Source of the DNA: Chitinophagaceae bacterium
Lineage (GTDB): Bacteria; Bacteroidota; Bacteroidia; Chitinophagales; Chitinophagaceae
Direction of reading: 5' to 3'
Length of the DNA stretch: 64,000 bases
Assembly: GCA_020403425.1 (NCBI GenBank)
Contig: JADBXR010000019.1
Coordinates: 1 to 64,000 of the forward strand
Part shown: in pieces, positions 375 to 63,298 of the stretch
Position numbering within the stretch: position 1 is the first letter of the stretch
Layout of the letters: each line of letters begins with the position of its first letter
Translations under genes and position numbers: made by a program
Notes under the pieces: model-generated
The model's database searches: none
What the model was told of the DNA's origin: nothing
Seen by the model: only the letters and a program-made list of their open reading frames with translations

Positions 375-1241
375 CTAAAGCACTACAGTTGTCGGCTTTA
401 CGGCGGTTATCAATAATCCGTTACCGGTGGAATGGGGCCTGCTATGATCGATCAACATCAGCAGCAGGATAAATGGCGAAATGGCCAGTAATACCATTGT
501 GTACAGGATCTTGTACAACCAACCTGACGACATGATCAATAACAGCAGGCTATTGGTGATCTCGTGACTGAGCCTTCCACAGTATCCATACGTATACTGC
601 AGCTGCTGTATCTGCCAACCAGCTTCCTGCACTTTGTTCCTGATCTCTTCGGACCGGTAGATCCTTTTTCTGTCGTTGATCGTCTCGTAATGTTCACGGC
701 TGTTCAACAGGCGCTGGTACAAGGAGGTATGTATCTTTCCATTCACGGGTACATATAACAACATTTTGCCACCAGGCTTCACGATCGACAGCATATTCCG
801 CAGTGCCTGCGCGTCATCCCTGATGTATTGTAATACGCCTATGCAGCTCAGGACATCTGTTGTTTCCTGTTCCTGCCATGTTTCAATGTTGCCGACCAGC
901 AAACGCATGTTCCGGCCTGGGGCCAGCCGTTGCAGGAAATCAATATTGGATCGCCGCATATCCATGCCGGTGCAATGTAAGGACCGGTAACTGCGGCTGA
1001 CCGGGATCAAATATTGTCCTTCACCGCAGCCGATATCCATCCATGATCCGCTTTGTCCCAGCAACCTGATCTCCCGCCTGATGGCTGGCATCACATACCA
1101 TTTCCGGAAATGGAAGAAATAATTGACCATATACAGGATGTATATGAGCCGGGGATAGCGCATCAGCCATAGAGGATATTCGAAATTGGAGATATTATGT
1201 GTCAATGTTGTAGGCTGGCTCCTGTCTATGTTCCCCTCCAT
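375..1241 (-). CDS. Class I SAM-dependent methyltransferase
   Basis: Motif I WMDIGCGEGQYL, downstream DVLSCIGVLQYIRD; C-terminal hydrophobic segments. Confidence 0.85.
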   Translation of the reverse strand: MEGNIDRSQPTTLTHNISNFEYPLWLMRYPRLIYILYMVNYFFHFRKWYVMPAIRREIRLLGQSGSWMDIGCGEGQYLIPVSRSYRSLHCTGMDMRRSNIDFLQRLAPGRNMRLLVGNIETWQEQETTDVLSCIGVLQYIRDDAQALRNMLSIVKPGGKMLLYVPVNGKIHTSLYQRLLNSREHYETINDRKRIYRSEEIRNKVQEAGWQIQQLQYTYGYCGRLSHEITNSLLLLIMSSGWLYKILYTMVLLAISPFILLLMLIDHSRPHSTGNGLLITAVKPTTVVL

Positions 1242-1374
1242 AAGCTATGATTCTGGTAGCGTACTGATTTATAATCTGTAAGTTACCTATAATTCATCGC
1301 CCTTCTCTTCAAAATAAAAAGTGGTGTCAGCATAGTAACAGACCCTGACCAAAACTTTGGTTACACACTTCCTG

Positions 1375-1797
1375 TCATCCGGCGATCTCGATCAACAGCT
1401 CTCCGGGCGTATAAACGGGTAATACAGGAATGCCTTGTTTTTGTAACTGCTTGTCTCGTGATATGAAATAATCCAGTTTATGGTGTACGGCTGTATAGTA
1501 TTGTAAGGCATCTTCTATATCGGTTATCTTTGAATGAAGGGCATTCAATACAATTTCGTGTGGCAGATCGATCACCGTTACATCTGCCATAAGGGTCAAC
1601 AGTAATTCTTTGGCTTTGGCATTACCGTAGGCTTTCGTTAACCAGTAGCCAACAATATGTACAATTGAAGGCGTAATGAACGCCTGAATGGTTCCGTTCA
1701 CTGCCCATTCAATGATCCTGCGGGATTCTTCATACGCCTCACGCTTTAAGGTGAGGTCCAGCAATATGTTCGCATCAAGAAATACTTTAGAAGCCAT
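1375..1797 (-). CDS. PIN-domain toxin (VapC-like) of a type II toxin-antitoxin pair
   Basis: MASKVFLDANILLDLTLKRE...DYFISRDKQL PIN-like acidic residues; overlaps the upstream small ORF; ORF track start 1809, ATG at 1797 preferred. Confidence 0.8.
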   Translation of the reverse strand: MASKVFLDANILLDLTLKREAYEESRRIIEWAVNGTIQAFITPSIVHIVGYWLTKAYGNAKAKELLLTLMADVTVIDLPHEIVLNALHSKITDIEDALQYYTAVHHKLDYFISRDKQLQKQGIPVLPVYTPGELLIEIAG

Positions 1798-2029
1798 ACT
1801 TCTTCGCATTTTCTTTATAGTACAGTTCCTTTAGATCTGCTTCTTCTGCAATAACAGGTTTGTCCAGTTTTTCAACCAGATGCAGGATATTCTTACGCTT
1901 GGAGGGTTTGGTAACGGTCTTAAAATAACCTTCCACCAGTTCAGAGACACTCTGCTGTTGTTTTGCGGCATAGTTCTTTACATTTTCAAGCAAACTATCC
2001 TCAATGGTCAGGTTCAATCTCGCTTTCAT
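1787..2029 (-). CDS. DUF6364-like / ribbon-helix-helix-type antitoxin
   Basis: MKARLNLTIEDSLLENVKNYAAKQQQSVSELVEGYFK; directly upstream of and overlapping the PIN gene. Confidence 0.75.
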   Translation of the reverse strand: MKARLNLTIEDSLLENVKNYAAKQQQSVSELVEGYFKTVTKPSKRKNILHLVEKLDKPVIAEEADLKELYYKENAKKYGF

Positions 2030-2313
2030 AGGTCAAATATACGCATGATTTTAATTTATGCGTATTATTTTCGGGGGACCTATTTTTGACGAAACATAGC
2101 AGCATCTCAAAATAGCTTCATTTATCCTTATTATATCATTATTTACCATATATGAGCCCAGGCGCCTTCTTACTATGAATTTGCTGTTATAGACCTGCAA
2201 ACGCTTTCAATGTGCATATGGGTGTTCATTGTGTTGGGGTGCTTTTATGTACAGCTTCCGCAATTTTCTGCAGTTAACAACCTTATGCGATAGTAAAGGC
2301 AAAACCATTTGCC

Positions 2314-2511
2314 ATGCTTGATTTCAATTTGTATTCTGAGTTTTACAAACAACCTATACTGTTAACAGAAGAAGAGAAGCAAGACCCGTTACCTGTTACA
2401 ATCAGGCAATTCTTTGAGGATGTGAGGCTTGTCGAGGTGAGGATACACCTATATAATCTGTTGGAGGTGACATTAACAACGTCCAATACTATTTATAATG
2501 ATAAAGACTAA
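2314..2511 (+). CDS. Possible small protein of unknown function
   Basis: 65-aa ORF with protein-like composition (LTEEEKQDPLPVTIRQFFEDVRLVEVR) in an otherwise non-coding gap. Confidence 0.4.
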   Translation: MLDFNLYSEFYKQPILLTEEEKQDPLPVTIRQFFEDVRLVEVRIHLYNLLEVTLTTSNTIYNDKD

Positions 2512-2538
2512 TAAATGACCAAAGGTTCGATTGTTATA

Positions 2539-3378
2539 TTATGGTTTTTCAGAAATAAAAATACTAAATCGAAAAATTCTACTTCGCTCTTCTCGCCATG
2601 AAGGTAGATTAAACTTAAATGACTCTGTTGTCACATCTTTAACTGTCCCGGTTTGGCCAACCGGCATATCTTCAACTGAGGTAATGAGGAATGGCGGCTT
2701 TTTAAACTGTGGAAGTTTATCACCATTTAGAGTCTTCATATCTTTAAAGTAATATTTTGTATAGTAACTCTCTTCACTTTTTGCTGTGTCCATGATCCTG
2801 GTATCAAAGAATAAACTATCAACTAGATAGAAATTTTGTTTTAAAATATTTTTTGCATTGATATCCGTTATTCGACCTTGTACATTTTTAACTTTATCAT
2901 CAACAACAGCTTGTTGGGAAGATAACATTTCTAGATTATGCTTATATCCTTCAAGCGTATTTTGAGTATTTTGCAATTGAGAAGTAGTCTTTTGAAGCAG
3001 ATGCATTGAAGATGCGGAGATAGTCTGCAAGCTTTTGTCAGTTGCGCTAATTCTTTTGTTAATGGCGGTATCAAAATAACTAATGATTGAATCCGTCCTT
3101 TTGGACATCATCGCATTTTTTATTGTAAAATCATCCTTTAGAGCTTTTTCAACATTTTGTAAACTATTATAGCCGAAAATTACGAGCACAGTTCCCACGA
3201 GAGAAACCGTTGCAACAAAAAACTCTTGCTTATATTTAAGTTCATAATATCTAGGATCATCTAGATTTCGATCTGTCTTACTACGATTTTTCAATTGCCG
3301 AATAGAAGCTAAATTCCAAATTAGCAAGATTAATAAGGAAACGCCTATAATAGTAAGTAATAAAATACCGAAATCCAT
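2539..3378 (-). CDS. Membrane protein of unknown function, two N-terminal TM segments and a coiled-coil
   Basis: 279-aa ORF, hydrophobic FGILLLTIIGVSLLILLIWNLA and FFVATVSLVGTVLVIFGY, then heptad-rich region; AT-rich. Confidence 0.65.
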   Translation of the reverse strand: MDFGILLLTIIGVSLLILLIWNLASIRQLKNRSKTDRNLDDPRYYELKYKQEFFVATVSLVGTVLVIFGYNSLQNVEKALKDDFTIKNAMMSKRTDSIISYFDTAINKRISATDKSLQTISASSMHLLQKTTSQLQNTQNTLEGYKHNLEMLSSQQAVVDDKVKNVQGRITDINAKNILKQNFYLVDSLFFDTRIMDTAKSEESYYTKYYFKDMKTLNGDKLPQFKKPPFLITSVEDMPVGQTGTVKDVTTESFKFNLPSWREERSRIFRFSIFISEKP

Positions 3379-5215: not shown

Positions 5216-5417
5216 AGGGAATGGCAGAATGATAGAATGATAGAATGAGTGAATGGGGGGAGTAGTGAGTGGTGAGTAGGGAGGGGATAATGAGTGGGCA
5301 ATGGTGAATGGGCAATGGGCAATAGGTAACGGCAGCGCAAGCCCCCCTGCCAATTCACCATTGCCCATTCACCATTGCCCCTTGCCCATTCACTCATCCA
5401 CTCATTCACTCATTCAC
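5216..5417. repeat. Family A quasi-palindromic word repeat, locus A1
   Basis: Perfect 23-bp inverted arms gggcaatggtgaatgggcaatgg (5296-5318) and ccattgcccattcaccattgccc (5358-5380), with tandem TCACTCAT/TCATTCTA words outside. Confidence 0.9.
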
Positions 5418-6242
5418 TCATTGTTCTTCCACCCTGAACGTGATCTTCTGTTTCTGCCGGTAGATGACGTGGCGGCCGTTCTGTACGGCGGGTGTCCAGC
5501 GGGGGCTTTTCTGGATGACGCGGATGGCTTCGGCCCTGGTACCGTAGCCGGGGTCGTTCTCGGCACGTACGTCGCTGATATTGCCTTCGCGGTCAACGAT
5601 GAAGGAGACCACCACCGAATAATCGGCCGGGGGAGCCCCATTCTGGGCGGCGATGTCCTGGTTGAGGTTCCTTTCCAGGTATTTGCGCCAGGCGGCGATC
5701 CCGCCCAGGAACTGGGCCTCTATCTGCACGGAGGCGAATACTTTGTCGATGTCCTCCTCCTGCCGGGGGGCTTCTACCACGCCGGTCCCTTTTTCAATGG
5801 GAGGGGCCACCACCCCTTCGTCCTTAGCGCCTTCCTGGTTGAGGGTGCCGATACGGGTATTGTCCAGCTGGTCGATCTCTTTCACTTCATCCTCTGCCGT
5901 TACCTGGTCGTCGGCCACGATCCTGGGTGGGGTCACTTTGGCCATTTCCACTTTGGGTGGCTGTTCTTTGGGGATGGGTTTGGGCTGTTCGGGTTTGGGT
6001 TCCTCCTGTTTGAAATTCTCGAGTTCCACAACGGTCACCAGTTCTGTTGGCGTCCGGTTCTTCTTGCCATTGGCCAGCAGGGAGCCCCCTACTGCCAGCA
6101 GGCAAAGCAACAGCATGGCCGACAAGGCAAACAGGATCCGTTTCTGATAGGTCTTGCGCAATTCATAGGCGCCATACAATTTATTCCTTCCATCAAAGAG
6201 GATGTCCAGAATATCCGCGGATAGGATCTGTGACTTTTCCAT
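5418..6242 (-). CDS. tonB: Energy transducer TonB family protein (copy 1)
   Basis: N-terminal TM, Pro/Lys/Glu linker, TonB C-terminal domain (FIVDREGNISDVRAENDPGYGTRAEAIRVIQKSPRWTPAVQNGR). Confidence 0.92.
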   Translation of the reverse strand: MEKSQILSADILDILFDGRNKLYGAYELRKTYQKRILFALSAMLLLCLLAVGGSLLANGKKNRTPTELVTVVELENFKQEEPKPEQPKPIPKEQPPKVEMAKVTPPRIVADDQVTAEDEVKEIDQLDNTRIGTLNQEGAKDEGVVAPPIEKGTGVVEAPRQEEDIDKVFASVQIEAQFLGGIAAWRKYLERNLNQDIAAQNGAPPADYSVVVSFIVDREGNISDVRAENDPGYGTRAEAIRVIQKSPRWTPAVQNGRHVIYRQKQKITFRVEEQ

Positions 6243-6327
6243 AGTAGTGAGTTTCTACTATGATTCTTACGAAGGGAAAAATCCACAGGTGAAAACGGTG
6301 AGTAAATTTTATGGAAATTCCATAAGG

Positions 6328-6587
6328 GGCAATGAGTGGATGAGTGAATGAATGAATGGATGTGAGTGGTGAGTGGTGAGTAGGGAGGGAATAATGAGTA
6401 GTGGCAATGGTGAATGGGCAATAGGCAATCGGCAATGGGCAATAGGCAATAGGTAGCGGCAGAGCCAGTCCCTTCCCCATTGACAATTCACCATTCACAA
6501 TTGCCCATTCACAATTCACCACTCACGACTGACGCCTCACGATCCCTCATTCACTCATCCACTCATCCACTCATTCACTCATTCAAT
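6328..6587. repeat. Family A quasi-palindromic word repeat, locus A2
   Basis: Words caatggtgaatgggcaatagg / attcaccattcacaattgcccattcac; core gcaataggtagcggcag shared with A1 (gcaataggtaacggcag). Confidence 0.88.
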
Positions 6588-6626
6588 AAAAACGCCCCGC
6601 ATTATTATTTGCGGGGCGTTTTATTT
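6588..6626 (-). terminator. Rho-independent terminator 3' of tonB copy 2
   Basis: aaaacgccccgc-attattattt-gcggggcgttttattt. Confidence 0.85.
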
Positions 6627-22587: not shown

Positions 22588-23706
22588 TTAGTCGTTCTTC
22601 TTATTAAAATCAGCGGAATGCGCCGGTCCGTTGATCAAACTCAGTTCGATATTCGGGCGGTTCACTTCACTCACCGAGTGTATGTCCATCAGCAGTTTCG
22701 GCTGTCGGCCATCATGCACTGCGGTGAAGGTCTCTTTGGGTTGGGTAGTACCGATCTTTCCGGCATAATGTCCCTGTGAGATCACGGAATGACGGTTGAT
22801 CTCGCGCGGGCCCTCTATCACCCAGTCGCTGGTCTTCTTCTTATCAAAGCGGCAGGTATTACAGATCCAGGCGGTTTTGCCGTCCTCTGTATTTTCCACC
22901 TCACCCCATTCATCCTTACGGGCGGTAACGCGGAACACTTCATCGCCCCGGTTCCATAAAGTGACCTTACCGGAACAGTTGGGACAATCGCGGTGTGCAT
23001 TCATCGGTTTCAGGAACCATACTCGGTTCTTGAAACGGAAGGTCTTATCGGTCAGTGCACCTACCGGACAAACATCGATCACGTTGCCGATAAAATCATT
23101 ATCGAGGTTCTTTTCAATGAACGTGGCGATCTCTGCATGGTCGCCCCTGTCCAGTACGCCATGCTCCCTTTTATTGGTAAGCTGGTCGGCCGTGAATACA
23201 CAACGGTAGCAGAGTATGCAACGGGTCATGTGCAGCTGGATATAGGGACCCAGGTCATGTTTCTTGAATACCCGTTTCTGGAACTCGAAACGCGTTCCTT
23301 CCGAACCGTGTTCATAACTCAGGTCCTGCAGGTGACATTCACCGGCCTGGTCGCAGATAGGGCAATCCAGGGGGTGATTGATCAGCAGGAATTCCACCAC
23401 ACCGGCACGGGCGTCCAGCACTTTCGGGCTGGTGATATTTTTCACTTCCATCCCATCCATCACCGTGGTACGGCAGGATGCCACCAGCTTGGGCATGGGG
23501 CGCGGGTCTTTTTCTGAACCTTTGCTCACTTCTACCAGGCAGGTACGGCATTTACCACCACTACCCTGCAATTTGCTGTAATAGCACATAGCGGGCGGTG
23601 CCACTTCGCCACCGATCTTACGGGCTGCATTCAGGATGGTGGTCCCGGCAGGCACCTCGATGGTGATGTTGTCGATGGTCACTTTCAATAAGGGTTGCTC
23701 CGACAT
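22588..23706 (-). CDS. nuoG: NADH-quinone oxidoreductase subunit G, short form (2Fe-2S/4Fe-4S region only)
   Basis: CYYSKLQGSGGKCRTCLVEV; CPICDQAGECHLQDLSYEHG; CILCYRCVF; ends shortly after CNTCRFDKK; 372 aa. Confidence 0.92.
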   Translation of the reverse strand: MSEQPLLKVTIDNITIEVPAGTTILNAARKIGGEVAPPAMCYYSKLQGSGGKCRTCLVEVSKGSEKDPRPMPKLVASCRTTVMDGMEVKNITSPKVLDARAGVVEFLLINHPLDCPICDQAGECHLQDLSYEHGSEGTRFEFQKRVFKKHDLGPYIQLHMTRCILCYRCVFTADQLTNKREHGVLDRGDHAEIATFIEKNLDNDFIGNVIDVCPVGALTDKTFRFKNRVWFLKPMNAHRDCPNCSGKVTLWNRGDEVFRVTARKDEWGEVENTEDGKTAWICNTCRFDKKKTSDWVIEGPREINRHSVISQGHYAGKIGTTQPKETFTAVHDGRQPKLLMDIHSVSEVNRPNIELSLINGPAHSADFNKKND

Positions 23707-23743
23707 AATTCAAAATTCAAAAGTCAAAATTCAAAAGCCAAAA
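23707..23743. repeat. Family B word repeat arm flanking the four-helix-bundle gene
   Basis: aattcaaaattcaaaagtcaaaattcaaaagccaaaa; inverted relative to 24131-24164. Confidence 0.85.
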
Positions 23744-23759
23744 TCACTACTTGGCTTTT
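23733..23759 (-). terminator. Hairpin enclosing the stop codon of the four-helix-bundle gene (terminator-like)
   Basis: aaaagccaa (23733-23741) / ttggctttt (23751-23759), 9-bp stem, 9-nt loop; T-rich downstream on the minus strand. Confidence 0.45.
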
Positions 23760-24130
23760 AGAATAATAGAAGCGAGGATTTTTGATATCTCATCCGCTTC
23801 TTTTATCAGTCCATTAATCTTCTCTTTATCTACACCCATTGTATCCCTGATAAGACACAACCAGTATTTGGTTTCGTTGGCCGACTTCAATGCAATTACG
23901 AGATAGTTCTTCCAATCTTTTATAGAACTGCCAGCTCTGGCCTCTACAACATTTGCACCGATCGAAGTACCACTTCTCAATAACTGATCAAATAAAGAAC
24001 TATATATCCTGTCATAATCACAACGCCCGACAAACACAATGATCTCCTTCGAAAAGAAAAAACACCTGTGCCTGATATCAAATGGTCTCTGCTCTTCATT
24101 CAATTCAAAGTTGTCAAATTCGTCCTCCAT
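23747..24130 (-). CDS. Four helix bundle protein (S23 / 23S rRNA intervening-sequence protein family)
   Basis: RPFDIRHRCFFFSKEIIVFV...LFDQLLRSGTSIGANVVEARAGSSIKDWKNYLVIALKSANETKYWL; start corrected to MEDEFDNFELNEEQ. Confidence 0.9.
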   Translation of the reverse strand: MEDEFDNFELNEEQRPFDIRHRCFFFSKEIIVFVGRCDYDRIYSSLFDQLLRSGTSIGANVVEARAGSSIKDWKNYLVIALKSANETKYWLCLIRDTMGVDKEKINGLIKEADEISKILASIILKAK

Positions 24131-24164
24131 ATTTTTGAATTTTGAATTTTGACCTTTGAATTGA
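24131..24164. repeat. Family B word repeat arm flanking the four-helix-bundle gene
   Basis: atttttgaattttgaattttgacctttgaattga. Confidence 0.85.
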
Positions 24165-25520
24165 TCACCCAACCGGCACATGGATCGGATCCGCATAATG
24201 CGCCAATCCAAAATTCCTTTTCTGCGCTTCTTCCGGATGGGTCACATGCCATTCGAACTCATCCCGGAAATGCCTGATGGCTGCTGCTACGGGCCAGGCC
24301 GCCGCATCGCCCAACGGGCAGATCGTATTTCCTTCTATCTTACGCTGGATATCCCATAACAGGTCGATATCGCTCGACTTGCCCTGTCCTTTATCCAGGC
24401 GCAGTAATAATTTCTCCATCCAGCCGGTACCTTCCCGACAGGGTGAACACTGTCCGCAGCTTTCGTGACGGTAGAAGCGTGCAAATGTATAAGTGTTCTT
24501 CACCACACACTGGTCTTCATCCAGTACAATGAACCCTCCCGAGCCCATCATGGTCCCGGTGGCAAAACCACCGTCGCTCAGGCTCTCGTAGTTCATATAA
24601 CGGGTCTCACCCTTGGCTGTTTTCAATAACAGGTTAGCTGGCAGAATAGGTACGGAAGAACCACCGGGGATACAGGCTTTCAGCCTTTTACCGTTGGCAA
24701 TGCCGCCACAATATTCATCGCTGTAGATGAACTCTTCCACAGAGATGGTCATATCGATCTCGTATACACCGGGTTTATTGATGTTGCCACAAGCGGAGAT
24801 CAGCTTGGTACCGGTGGATTTACCCACACCGATCTTGGCATATTCCTCTCCACCCATATTGATGATGGGCACCACGGCTGAAAGCGTTTCCACATTATTC
24901 ACCACCGTTGGACGCATCCACAATCCCTGGATGGCCGGGAACGGAGGTTTGATGCGCGGGTTACCACGCTTACCTTCCAGTGATTCGATCAGCGCGGTCT
25001 CTTCTCCGCAGATATAAGCTCCGGCACCACGTTGTACATGTATCTCACAATCAAAACCGCTTCCCAGGATATTTTTTCCCAGGAACCCGTTGGCCCTGGC
25101 CTCGCCAATGGCCTGTTCCAGGATATCCACGATCCACGCATATTCACCGCGGATATAGATATAGGTATCATTACTGCCCAAGGCAAAAGAAGCCACGATC
25201 AGTCCTTCGATCAGCAGGTGCGGGATGTTCTCCATCAGGTACCTGTCCTTGAAGGTTCCCGGCTCGCTCTCATCGGCGTTACATACCAGGTGACGGGGCA
25301 CTCCTTCCGGTTTGGCGATAAAACTCCACTTCATACCGGCAGGGAAACCGGCACCGCCCCTTCCACGCAATCCGCTCTTCTTCACTTCCTCCACAATGGC
25401 TTCGGGACTCATGGTCTTCAGGGCTTTCTCCACACTGCGGTAACCACCTTCGCGGCGGTACACTTCGTAGGAGCGGATGCCTTCAACATGTGCTTTCTCT
25501 AATAATAATTTTACACCCAT
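24165..25520 (-). CDS. nuoF: NADH-quinone oxidoreductase subunit F
   Basis: GRGGAGFPAGMKWSF; GAGAYICGEETALIESLEGKRGNPRIKPPFPA; ESCGQCSPCREG. Confidence 0.97.
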   Translation of the reverse strand: MGVKLLLEKAHVEGIRSYEVYRREGGYRSVEKALKTMSPEAIVEEVKKSGLRGRGGAGFPAGMKWSFIAKPEGVPRHLVCNADESEPGTFKDRYLMENIPHLLIEGLIVASFALGSNDTYIYIRGEYAWIVDILEQAIGEARANGFLGKNILGSGFDCEIHVQRGAGAYICGEETALIESLEGKRGNPRIKPPFPAIQGLWMRPTVVNNVETLSAVVPIINMGGEEYAKIGVGKSTGTKLISACGNINKPGVYEIDMTISVEEFIYSDEYCGGIANGKRLKACIPGGSSVPILPANLLLKTAKGETRYMNYESLSDGGFATGTMMGSGGFIVLDEDQCVVKNTYTFARFYRHESCGQCSPCREGTGWMEKLLLRLDKGQGKSSDIDLLWDIQRKIEGNTICPLGDAAAWPVAAAIRHFRDEFEWHVTHPEEAQKRNFGLAHYADPIHVPVG

Positions 25521-25597
25521 ATTGAAAAGTCAAAAGTCAAAAGTTAAAAGTCAAAAGTCAACCCTTAATTTTTTACTTTTTAATTTTTACTTTTTAA
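25521..25597. repeat. Family B word repeat between nuoE and nuoF
   Basis: aaaagtcaaaagtcaaaagttaaaagtcaaaagtc ... ttttttactttttaatttttactttttaatt. Confidence 0.85.
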
Positions 25598-26110
25598 TTA
25601 ATTATTGGCTGCAGCGTTTTTCGTACACTCTGCAATGATCGCGTCCACTTTTTCTTTTGTCAGGTGTTCGCGGTAATGTTTGCCCAACTGCATCATCGGT
25701 GCATAACCGCAGGCGCCCAGACACTCCACCGTTTTTAAAGTGAACAGACCATCTGCGGTCGTCTCACCTGGTTTAATACCCAGTTTCTCGCCGATATACG
25801 CAACGATATCATCACTGCCACGCAGCATACAGGGACCTGTCTGGCACACCTCGAACAGGTATTTGCCCACTGGTTTCAGGTTGTACATGCTGTAGAAAGT
25901 GGCCACTTCGTATACTTCAATCGGTGTGATGTTCAGCAACTCTGCCACATAATCCATCGTTTCGGTACTCAGCCATCCGCCAAAAGAATCCTGTGCCAGG
26001 TGCAGTACCGGCAACAAAGCACTTTTCTGCTTGCCTTCCGGGTAACGTGCCACGAGGCGTTTTACTTCCGCTAACTGTGTTTCTGAAAATTTCGACATAC
26101 TATTCTTCAA
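25598..26110 (-). CDS. nuoE: NADH-quinone oxidoreductase subunit E
   Basis: CQTGPCMLRGSDDI; VECLGACGYAPMMQ. Confidence 0.96.
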   Translation of the reverse strand: MKNSMSKFSETQLAEVKRLVARYPEGKQKSALLPVLHLAQDSFGGWLSTETMDYVAELLNITPIEVYEVATFYSMYNLKPVGKYLFEVCQTGPCMLRGSDDIVAYIGEKLGIKPGETTADGLFTLKTVECLGACGYAPMMQLGKHYREHLTKEKVDAIIAECTKNAAANN

Positions 26111-26205
26111 ATTTGGAAATTTGAAAATTTGAAAATTTGAAAATGAAAACCGGCAGGCTGGCAGCCTTCCATTTTCGAATTTTCAAATTGCCACATTCTC
26201 AAATC
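26107..26205. repeat. Family B-like word repeat between nuoD and nuoE
   Basis: ggaaatttgaaaatttgaaaatttgaaaatg ... cattttcgaattttcaaattgcc, inverted arms. Confidence 0.85.
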
Positions 26206-33216: not shown

Positions 33217-34587
33217 ATGAGCAAACCCGGCTTACCACAAGGAACCAGAGATTTCAGCGCAGCTGTTGTACACAAGCGCAATTATATTTTTCAGACCATC
33301 CGTTCCGTATTCGAGCGTTACGGCTTTCAGCCACTGGAAACGCCTGCCATGGAGAACCTGGATACCCTGATGGGCAAGTATGGGGAAGAGGGCGATAAAC
33401 TCATTTTCAAGATCCTGAACAATGGCCTCGACAATCCTGAAAAACACGAGCAGGCCAAAGCAGATTTTGAAAAAGTGCTCTCAGGTAAGAACACCAAGGG
33501 CATTACGGAAAGGGCATTACGTTACGACCTTACCATCCCCTTTGCAAGATATGTGGCCATGAATTACGGGCAGCTCACCCTTCCGTTCAAACGTTACCAG
33601 GTGCAGCCGGTATGGCGCGCCGACAGACCCCAGAAAGGCCGCTACCGTGAGTTCTACCAGTGTGATGCAGATGTGGTTGGCAGCAGATCACTGTTAAACG
33701 AAGTGGAACTTGCCGGCATCTACGCTACTGTATTCGAGAAACTGGGCATCGAGGTGGAGATCAAGATCAACAGCAGAAAAATATTGGCCGCCCTGGCAGA
33801 GTTATGCGGCGGCGCCGATAAGATGGTGGATATCACCGTTGCCATTGACAAACTGGACAAGATAGGGTTGGACAAAGTAAAGGCAGAACTTACTGCCAGA
33901 GGATTGTCCGATGCACAGATCGCCACCATTGAGCGGTACCTCTCCATATCCGGAAGCAACGAAGAAAAAATAGCCGCACTCAAACAACTCATCGGCAACA
34001 ATGAAACCGGTTTGAAAGGCATTGAAGAGATCGAATACGTGTTACACTACCCACTCACCACTCACCACTCACCACTCGTTACCGATTTCACCCTTGCCCG
34101 AGGACTGAACTACTACACAGGCATCATCTTTGAAGTGAAGGCAAAACAGGTGCAGATGGGCAGTATCGGCGGCGGCGGTCGTTATGATGACCTGACCGGT
34201 CTATTTGGAGTGCCCAATGTACCGGGCGTGGGGATCAGCTTTGGCGTAGACAGGATCTATGATGTGATGGAAGAGCTCAATTGTTTTCCCGATGAAGTGC
34301 AGGCCGGTACCAGGGTCCTGTTCTTTAACCTGGGCGAAGCGGAGAGCAAACAGGCATTTGGCCTGATGCAGCAATTGCGCAACCATGGCATTGCCTGCGA
34401 ACTGTTTCACGAGAACACCAAATTCGACAAACAATTCAAATACGCAGAAAAGAAGAACATTCCCTACGTGGTCATACTGGGTAGTGAAGAGTTGACCAAC
34501 AGTACCTGCCTGGTGAAAGATCTACGCAAAGGTGAACAACAAAGCCTGGCACAGGACAAACTGATCGGCTTCACTTTCACAACCTGA
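33217..34587 (+). CDS. hisS: Histidyl-tRNA synthetase
   Basis: FERYGFQPLETPAMENLD, RYDLTIPFARYVA, LARGLNYYTGIIFEVKA, GGGGRYDDLTGLFG. Confidence 0.97.
   Translation: MSKPGLPQGTRDFSAAVVHKRNYIFQTIRSVFERYGFQPLETPAMENLDTLMGKYGEEGDKLIFKILNNGLDNPEKHEQAKADFEKVLSGKNTKGITERALRYDLTIPFARYVAMNYGQLTLPFKRYQVQPVWRADRPQKGRYREFYQCDADVVGSRSLLNEVELAGIYATVFEKLGIEVEIKINSRKILAALAELCGGADKMVDITVAIDKLDKIGLDKVKAELTARGLSDAQIATIERYLSISGSNEEKIAALKQLIGNNETGLKGIEEIEYVLHYPLTTHHSPLVTDFTLARGLNYYTGIIFEVKAKQVQMGSIGGGGRYDDLTGLFGVPNVPGVGISFGVDRIYDVMEELNCFPDEVQAGTRVLFFNLGEAESKQAFGLMQQLRNHGIACELFHENTKFDKQFKYAEKKNIPYVVILGSEELTNSTCLVKDLRKGEQQSLAQDKLIGFTFTT
34048..34077 (+). repeat. In-frame heptamer array (CCACTCA) inside hisS, family A words
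   Basis: tacccactcaccactcaccactcaccactc, encodes YPLTTHHSPL. Confidence 0.85.
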
Positions 34588-63230: not shown

Positions 63231-63298
63231 TCCCCCATAAATGGCCGCGCCTTTGCGCCTTTGCGAGAAAGTTTGCCCGCAAAGGCGCAAAGGCGCGG
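63231..63298. repeat. Family E repeat with perfect 21-bp inverted arms
   Basis: ccgcgcctttgcgcctttgcg (63245-63265) / cgcaaaggcgcaaaggcgcgg (63278-63298), 12-nt loop. Confidence 0.95.

Follow-up and report, generated by a model that had tools for sequence, protein, structure and literature searches.

A four-helix-bundle gene between complementary heptad arms at the nuoF-nuoG junction of a Chitinophagaceae bacterium: a probable intervening-sequence-type cassette in an mRNA operon

The 64,000-nt stretch of DNA analysed here (the window; positions 1 to 64,000 of contig JADBXR010000019.1, assembly GCA_020403425.1, Chitinophagaceae bacterium) is part of an 83-kb contig from a genome of 3.7 Mb. Its nuo operon contains, between nuoF and nuoG and on the same strand, a small gene for a four-helix-bundle (4HB) protein that is bracketed by two inverted arrays of 7-nt words (23707-23743 and 24133-24164). 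This arrangement had been proposed in the first-pass annotation of the window, in which the protein was given as 128 aa, one residue more than the 127 aa found here. The features of this junction and of the next two junctions upstream are as follows:

22588..23706, (-): nuoG (372-aa form), co-directional, downstream, ATG at 23706
23743-23707, (-): 3' arm of the transcript, complementary heptads (TTTTGAATTTTGACTTTTGAATTTTGAATT), abutting the nuoG ATG
23747..24130, (-): 4HB gene, PF05635/TIGR02436, S23/IVP family, 127 aa, ATG start
24164-24133, (-): 5' arm of the transcript, heptads AATTCAA AGGTCAA AATTCAA AATTCAA AA, C-poor
24165..25520, (-): nuoF, co-directional, upstream
25521..25597, (-): hairpin without a gene, AATTCAA word family (AATTAAAAAGTAAAAA / TTTTGACTTTTGACTT), occupying the nuoE-nuoF junction
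26106..26204, (-): hairpin without a gene, with a different word (ATTTGAA), at the nuoD-nuoE junction

The 5' arm runs from the nuoF stop codon to 2 nt upstream of the 4HB start codon; the 3' arm (23743-23707) is the complement of AATTCAA AATTCAA AAGTCAA AATTCAA AAGCCAA. In an unbiased inverted-repeat scan, positions 23714-23743 paired with 24133-24162 (score 45, 27/30 bases, 3 mismatches), against a background of 3 matches with a score of at least 34 over 20 chunks of shuffled sequence. A terminal stem like that of the intervening sequences (IVSs) of 23S rRNA (~28 bp) is present, enclosing a 389-nt loop with the 4HB open reading frame (ORF), and is located between nuoF and nuoG, so outside 23S rRNA. 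When the junction was folded as RNA, the prediction placed the 4HB gene inside the closed word stem (z = -2.85, 1/100 shuffles as good), with a predicted pairing energy of -31 kcal/mol for the arms by themselves, in agreement with the earlier suggestion that the gene could be the loop of one long RNA stem. The additional hairpin described around the stop codon of the gene (AAAGCCAA/TTGGCTTT) exists in the window and is retained in G107 with one G-U pair (G, C and L numbers denote genomes, contigs and loci); it is missing from the G103 and G099 copies and is hence not a conserved part of the element. A search of the nuo junction returned no Rfam covariance-model match at E up to 1, and a known RNA family or intron was rejected.

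The 4HB protein scored well above the cut-offs of both PF05635 (71.3 bits, cut-off 33.8) and TIGR02436 (81.1 bits, cut-off 24), which upholds its assignment to the IVS-protein family. The closest folds to its AlphaFold2 model (predicted local distance difference test, 87) were 2RLD (TM 0.73, root-mean-square deviation 1.9) and 2GSC, followed by Avd of diversity-generating retroelements (DGRs; 4DWL and 8UB7), which was matched both alone and in the DGR ribonucleoprotein (Foldseek prob 1.00, TM 0.65-0.69 on query). A resemblance between PF05635 and Avd has been described (PMC10053308). Structures 2RLD and 2GSC have five chains each and, by analogy, the 4HB protein is presumed to be a homopentamer. 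No transposase or nuclease fold occurred among the structural matches, and no transposase or recombinase ORF lies inside the inverted repeats, where the 4HB gene is the sole ORF of at least 100 aa. The reverse transcriptase family RVT_1 (PF00078) had no match in the genome, with matches in 3 control genomes, and mobility via a genome-encoded reverse transcriptase was rejected on this basis. As PADLOC gave no match, a defence gene was also rejected; phage families yielded nothing convincing.

The genome encodes ten PF05635 genes, nine of them intact, and all nine intact members are flanked by inverted arms, each with a separate word: GTGAGNC, GTGAATG, TTGGGGT, CTGGATA, AATTTGA, AATGAGTG, TTGAGCAAGG, GCGCATT and, for the nuo copy, AATTCAA. 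The weakest pairs are those of GCGCATT and AATTTGA. We scored arms by aligning the upstream flank of each gene to the downstream flank of the same gene in reverse complement, with mismatched flanks as the control. A score of at least 26 was reached by 80% of 125 genes, compared to 4.3% for mismatched, 15% for direct and 3% for reversed-only flanks, and after collapsing to 65 independent sites matched inverted arms were present at 82% versus 3.9% of mismatched pairs. Within 0.86 Mb of the genome, scores of at least 34 were found around 7/9 family genes versus 2/664 other ORFs (Fisher test, P = 1e-13); one of these two ORFs is nuoF, which touches the nuo arm, and the other adjoins a family member. 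Likewise, among word hairpins with loops of 350-700 nt, every loop with an ORF of at least 100 aa contains a family member. Inverted word repeats thus regularly flank such genes, as had been anticipated, and are strongly enriched there relative to other sites. Carriers of PF05635 genes made up 116/148 sampled genomes in Bacteroidota and 86/145 in Patescibacteria, and in the Patescibacteria sample (plus a few loci of other metagenome-assembled genomes, MAGs) arms were found at 66% versus 2.4%, with a period of 7 or 8 and G exceeding C at 16:3.

The arms also share a grammar. The word unit was 7 nt in 133/155 periodic arms and 8 nt in 18, with a median of 4.3 words per arm (mostly 4 or 5). The 5' arm was C-poor (G>C at 47/52 independent sites), and gene-less hairpins showed the same polarity as armed genes (34:9). 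Where the neighbouring genes were co-directional, the 4HB gene lay in sense with them (36:3, P = 4e-8). The upstream stop codon fell -7 to +3 nt from the start of the 5' arm and the next ATG 0 to 11 nt beyond the 3' arm (n = 138, both as interquartile ranges); with both codons abutting the arms, the cassette takes up the spacer between the two cistrons. At the nuoF-nuoG loci (n = 48), the 5' arm started a median of 2 nt ahead of where the nuoF stop codon ends, and the 3' arm lay a median of 5 nt from the nuoG start. Core operons tolerate the cassette in sense at the seam between cistrons. A palindrome, GTATWWATAC, occurs near the 5' arm at L007, L009, L011 and L014 and in other members of the genus (eight sites in 0.86 Mb, four here). 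A looser form was found upstream of 15/60 family members of the genus versus 0/58 from other genera, and the palindrome was rejected as a family-wide element end, being confined to the genus.

Arms and gene behave as a single unit whose 7-nt word is specific to the clade, and the arms remain complementary while their sequence turns over. At orthologous sites, the match of an arm to its own partner exceeded its match to partner arms from orthologues (44.8 versus 31.2, P = 2e-8). Whole words were swapped in both arms at a membrane-protein/P-loop-protein gene site (GAATATTGAGCAAGG in G000 versus GAACAGATGAGCAAGG in G107) and at a second site (AGTGAGAGG in G087 versus AGATAAAAG in G095). Such swaps tend to accompany lower protein identity, and the sequences look as if whole cassettes had been exchanged. 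At L124 (G095), the matched arms are unusually long (more than 100 nt) and consist of AGATAAAAGATAAGAG words, the orthologous G087 site having the AGTGAGAGG word. AANTCAA/AANTAAA arms are carried by nearly all nearest named relatives of the window protein. At non-nuo armed sites these words occurred at 13/14 for the window clade versus 4/91 for other members (Fisher test, P = 2e-12), the 13/14 set extending to MAG contigs that bear the labels Smithella and WOR-3 and may be misbinned.

Words resident in the genome are also dispersed as hairpins that lack a gene. Each was present at 0-24 gene-less sites (median 6 in 0.86 Mb), whilst words of members from other genera had a median of 0 in the same genome (P = 6e-6). 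The survey regions were partly picked around known members, and densities were therefore taken from C12:1-400000 and spread samples of other genomes. Word hairpins per Mb numbered 25 in G000 and 40 in G107, compared to 0 in G070 (no family member) and 2 in G077 (armless member only) of the same genus. GTGARTN arrays were found in 5/61 genus genomes (41-95 matches each), all five with 6 to 13 members. The AATTCAA pattern was found in 10/61, seven of which have the cassette or a solo arm between nuoF and nuoG (G000, G107, G103, G099, G087, G106 and G095). Arrays without a detectable gene, as in G106, are perhaps relics. Within the nuo operon, the ATTTGAA hairpin of the nuoD-nuoE junction has a word type that recurs in the arms flanking the 4HB gene at G000:C16:5475-5771.

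Further word arrays were seen in the window. At 5225-6600, two composite clusters, each of several word families (AATGAGTG, GTGAGTG, GGGCAATG and AATGATAG), enclose an ORF from both sides, and word arrays also occur in coding regions, with about four in-frame CACTCAC heptads at 34048-34080 within the hisS coding sequence (peptide PLTTHHSPLVT). Hairpins of the CGCAAAGG word, whose loops resemble each other (GAGAAA..TTTGCCCGC) and whose polarity is reversed, are present at 63245-63298 and at L086 4620-4670; no resident 4HB gene was seen with this word, which also fills the nuoF-nuoG junction of G093.

Of the nearest relatives of the nuo copy, 66 are located in sense between nuoF and nuoG in Chitinophagaceae and Sphingobacteriaceae, in genera including Sediminibacterium, Ferruginibacter, Taibaiella, Flavisolibacter, Pinibacter, Mucilaginibacter, Pedobacter and Nubsella; the nearest named relatives of the window are Chitinophagaceae, mostly uncultured. 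Divergence of the 4HB protein was correlated with that of NuoF/NuoG (Mantel r = 0.62, P = 0.001), and the orthologues are under purifying selection (median ratio of non-synonymous to synonymous substitution rates, dN/dS, 0.07; 54 pairs). A recent insertion was rejected in view of the 66 orthologous copies in two families and, judged from these sequence comparisons, the nuo cassette is old and vertically inherited. The idea of an IVS-like element in an mRNA operon accordingly keeps its architecture (stem, S23-family ORF in the loop) and loses the fresh insertion. Empty sites do exist in relatives: most genomes of the window's genus have only a short spacer at this junction. Most of these look like losses, because the 66 relatives have the same word type and NuoF/NuoG-like divergence. 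A solo 3' arm before nuoG was found in G087 and G106, and a gene-less hairpin with a different word in G093. Comparison of empty sites revealed no target-site duplication, the spacer having already diverged. In G091 (L064 705-1497), a nucleotidyltransferase/HEPN pair (Pfam) is located between nuoF and nuoG, so the junction takes other small gene cassettes.

Taken together, we consider the nuo feature to be probably a resident copy of a widespread IVS-type cassette, consisting of a 5' heptad arm, an S23/4HB gene and a complementary 3' arm. In the nuo mRNA, the arms would pair into a stem of ~30 bp with the 4HB message as its loop. By analogy with the S23-bearing IVSs of 23S rRNA, this stem would be a substrate of RNase III, and cleavage would release the 4HB message while the nuoF and nuoG parts to its two sides stay intact. 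It is probable that the 4HB protein recognises the word of its own arms, at about one word per protomer with 4-5 words per arm, and acts in trans on hairpins of that word, aiding their spread or upkeep. Binding of RNA or single strands in this manner is plausible for the model, given its match to 2RLD and 2GSC and then to Avd.

Several observations weigh against an IVS-type cassette. Arms were weaker in the phylum-wide sample (50% versus 3.1%), and co-evolution of the arms was weak in the nuoF-nuoG set alone (P = 0.04). The excess of G-U pairs on the sense strand was not significant (105 versus 82 mismatches; 10 versus 8 at nuoF-nuoG), so selection for RNA pairing is not demonstrated and wobble asymmetry was rejected as a sign of it. 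The cassette lacks a mobility enzyme of its own and the genome lacks RVT_1. At least 7/62 named nuoF-nuoG copies had internal stops (the only breaks counted, alternative starts not being scored as such), and G107 keeps the arms around a broken 4HB gene. Array upkeep is not strictly gene-dependent, since G106 has 24 AATTCAA array matches and a solo nuoF-nuoG arm with no detectable family member; G073 has some AATTCAA arrays too. Finally, an armless PF05635 gene (set O; L128-L133, L141) is inherited vertically in seven genus genomes, with a phosphorylase-like gene on one side and a dapF-like gene on the other, and this set is likely a domesticated type.

We weighed three other explanations. The arms might be terminal inverted repeats of an element that moves as DNA only, read by the 4HB protein together with host enzymes, with the gene-less hairpins as derivatives resembling miniature inverted-repeat transposable elements (MITEs) and RNA structure irrelevant. 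Such an element would account for arms and gene behaving as a unit, for the dispersed gene-less copies of resident words, for the link between clade and word at unrelated sites and for the existence of empty and solo-arm sites, and DNA-level copying could likewise keep the arms alike. However, we regard it as unlikely: the 4HB protein has no transposase or nuclease fold, the arms are arrays of short units whose word changes, no target duplication was seen at empty nuoF-nuoG sites (with diverged spacers), and the sense bias and the tiling between stop and start codons call for a transcript-level cause. We are similarly doubtful that the cassette is a host regulatory switch, in which the start regions of nuoG and of the 4HB gene would be masked by the stem, and the 4HB protein, by binding to the arms, would set how strongly both are translated. 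Dozens of unrelated operons share the layout, many close relatives are without the cassette and broken copies occur, although long vertical residence between nuoF and nuoG (dN/dS 0.07, Mantel r 0.62), arms abutting both start codons at this junction and retention of the solo 3' arm before nuoG in G087 and G106 are what a switch would lead one to expect. Neutral repeat turnover, with slippage making heptad arrays, template switching (quasipalindrome correction) equalising the arms and the genes as bystanders, fits the joint change of whole words in both arms and the many hairpins without a gene, but is very improbable, as it is contradicted by the gene specificity (7/9 versus 2/664) and leaves unexplained the clade-specific words, the sense bias, the fixed C-poor 5' polarity (47:5) and the lack of word hairpins in G070.

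In one Patescibacteria MAG, an armed 4HB cassette interrupts a P-type ATPase gene (L321, G295:C42, reverse strand 956-3311). PF00122 is split, with positions 2-66 before the cassette and 67-181 after it, in one frame. From its sequence, this layout looks like that expected of an intervening sequence; the two RNA parts might be rejoined, the ATPase might be produced as two separate chains, or the gene may no longer function. Among 138 flank pairs and extra non-Bacteroidota loci, L321 was the only clear gene-splitting copy.

Dispersed palindromes of the REP (repetitive extragenic palindrome)/MITE type combine a helper-bearing copy with many gene-less copies in one genome. The cassettes described here pair helper-bearing and gene-less copies in the same way, but their helper is neither a nuclease nor a recombinase, their termini are word arrays and the word differs with each helper.

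In Coxiella, the 23S rRNA IVS is closed by a terminal stem of 28 bp and carries an S23p ORF, with GACAGAT heptamers in tandem ahead of its ATG; RNase III cuts in the stem, at the first repeat (PMC4990558). The nuo cassette is like the S23p/IVP-encoding IVSs of Coxiella and Leptospira (PMC4990558) in the complementary stem (28 bp there), the ORF in the loop, the size of ~430 nt, the heptamers before the ORF start (Coxiella) and a host RNA that stays functional. In contrast to these, the host of the nuo cassette is the mRNA of a protein operon, where cleavage by RNase III would follow by analogy, and the cassettes described here add clade-specific words, hairpins without a gene dispersed in the genome, and an ORF under purifying selection. 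Avd shares the four-helix-bundle fold (4DWL, 8UB7; PMC10053308), whereas here the genome lacks RVT_1 and the 4HB gene stands alone in a hairpin; a template/variable repeat was neither seen nor looked for. Direct-repeat arrays of the TAACTGA heptamer have been reported from Beggiatoaceae, Cyanobacteria and five Bacteroidetes, with a genome-specific 7-mer in 2-6 copies (PMC4679880). These are alike in that most 7-mer copies lie between genes, ahead of start codons and in forward orientation to them. They differ in being direct repeats, and the main text of that report names no four-helix or S23 gene; the arms here are inverted pairs with a 4HB gene between them or none. We found no description of inverted heptad arms around PF05635 operon genes in the open literature; subscription papers and preprints lay outside this search, and priority is uncertain.

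More tentatively, it is possible that PF05635 proteins are sequence-reading rings, each clade with its own 7-nt word and one protomer per word, that spread or maintain hairpins in trans. They would then make up a large class of IVS-type elements, selfish or domesticated, that reside in the mRNA operons of Bacteroidota and Patescibacteria and operate without their own nuclease, recombinase or reverse transcriptase. PF05635 genes are small, very common in both phyla and of no known function, and the link to arms gives this family a testable role. The link between arms and words joins the S23 ORFs of rRNA IVSs, the unexplained heptamer arrays and the Avd fold of DGRs, and would extend the range of IVS-type elements beyond rRNA.
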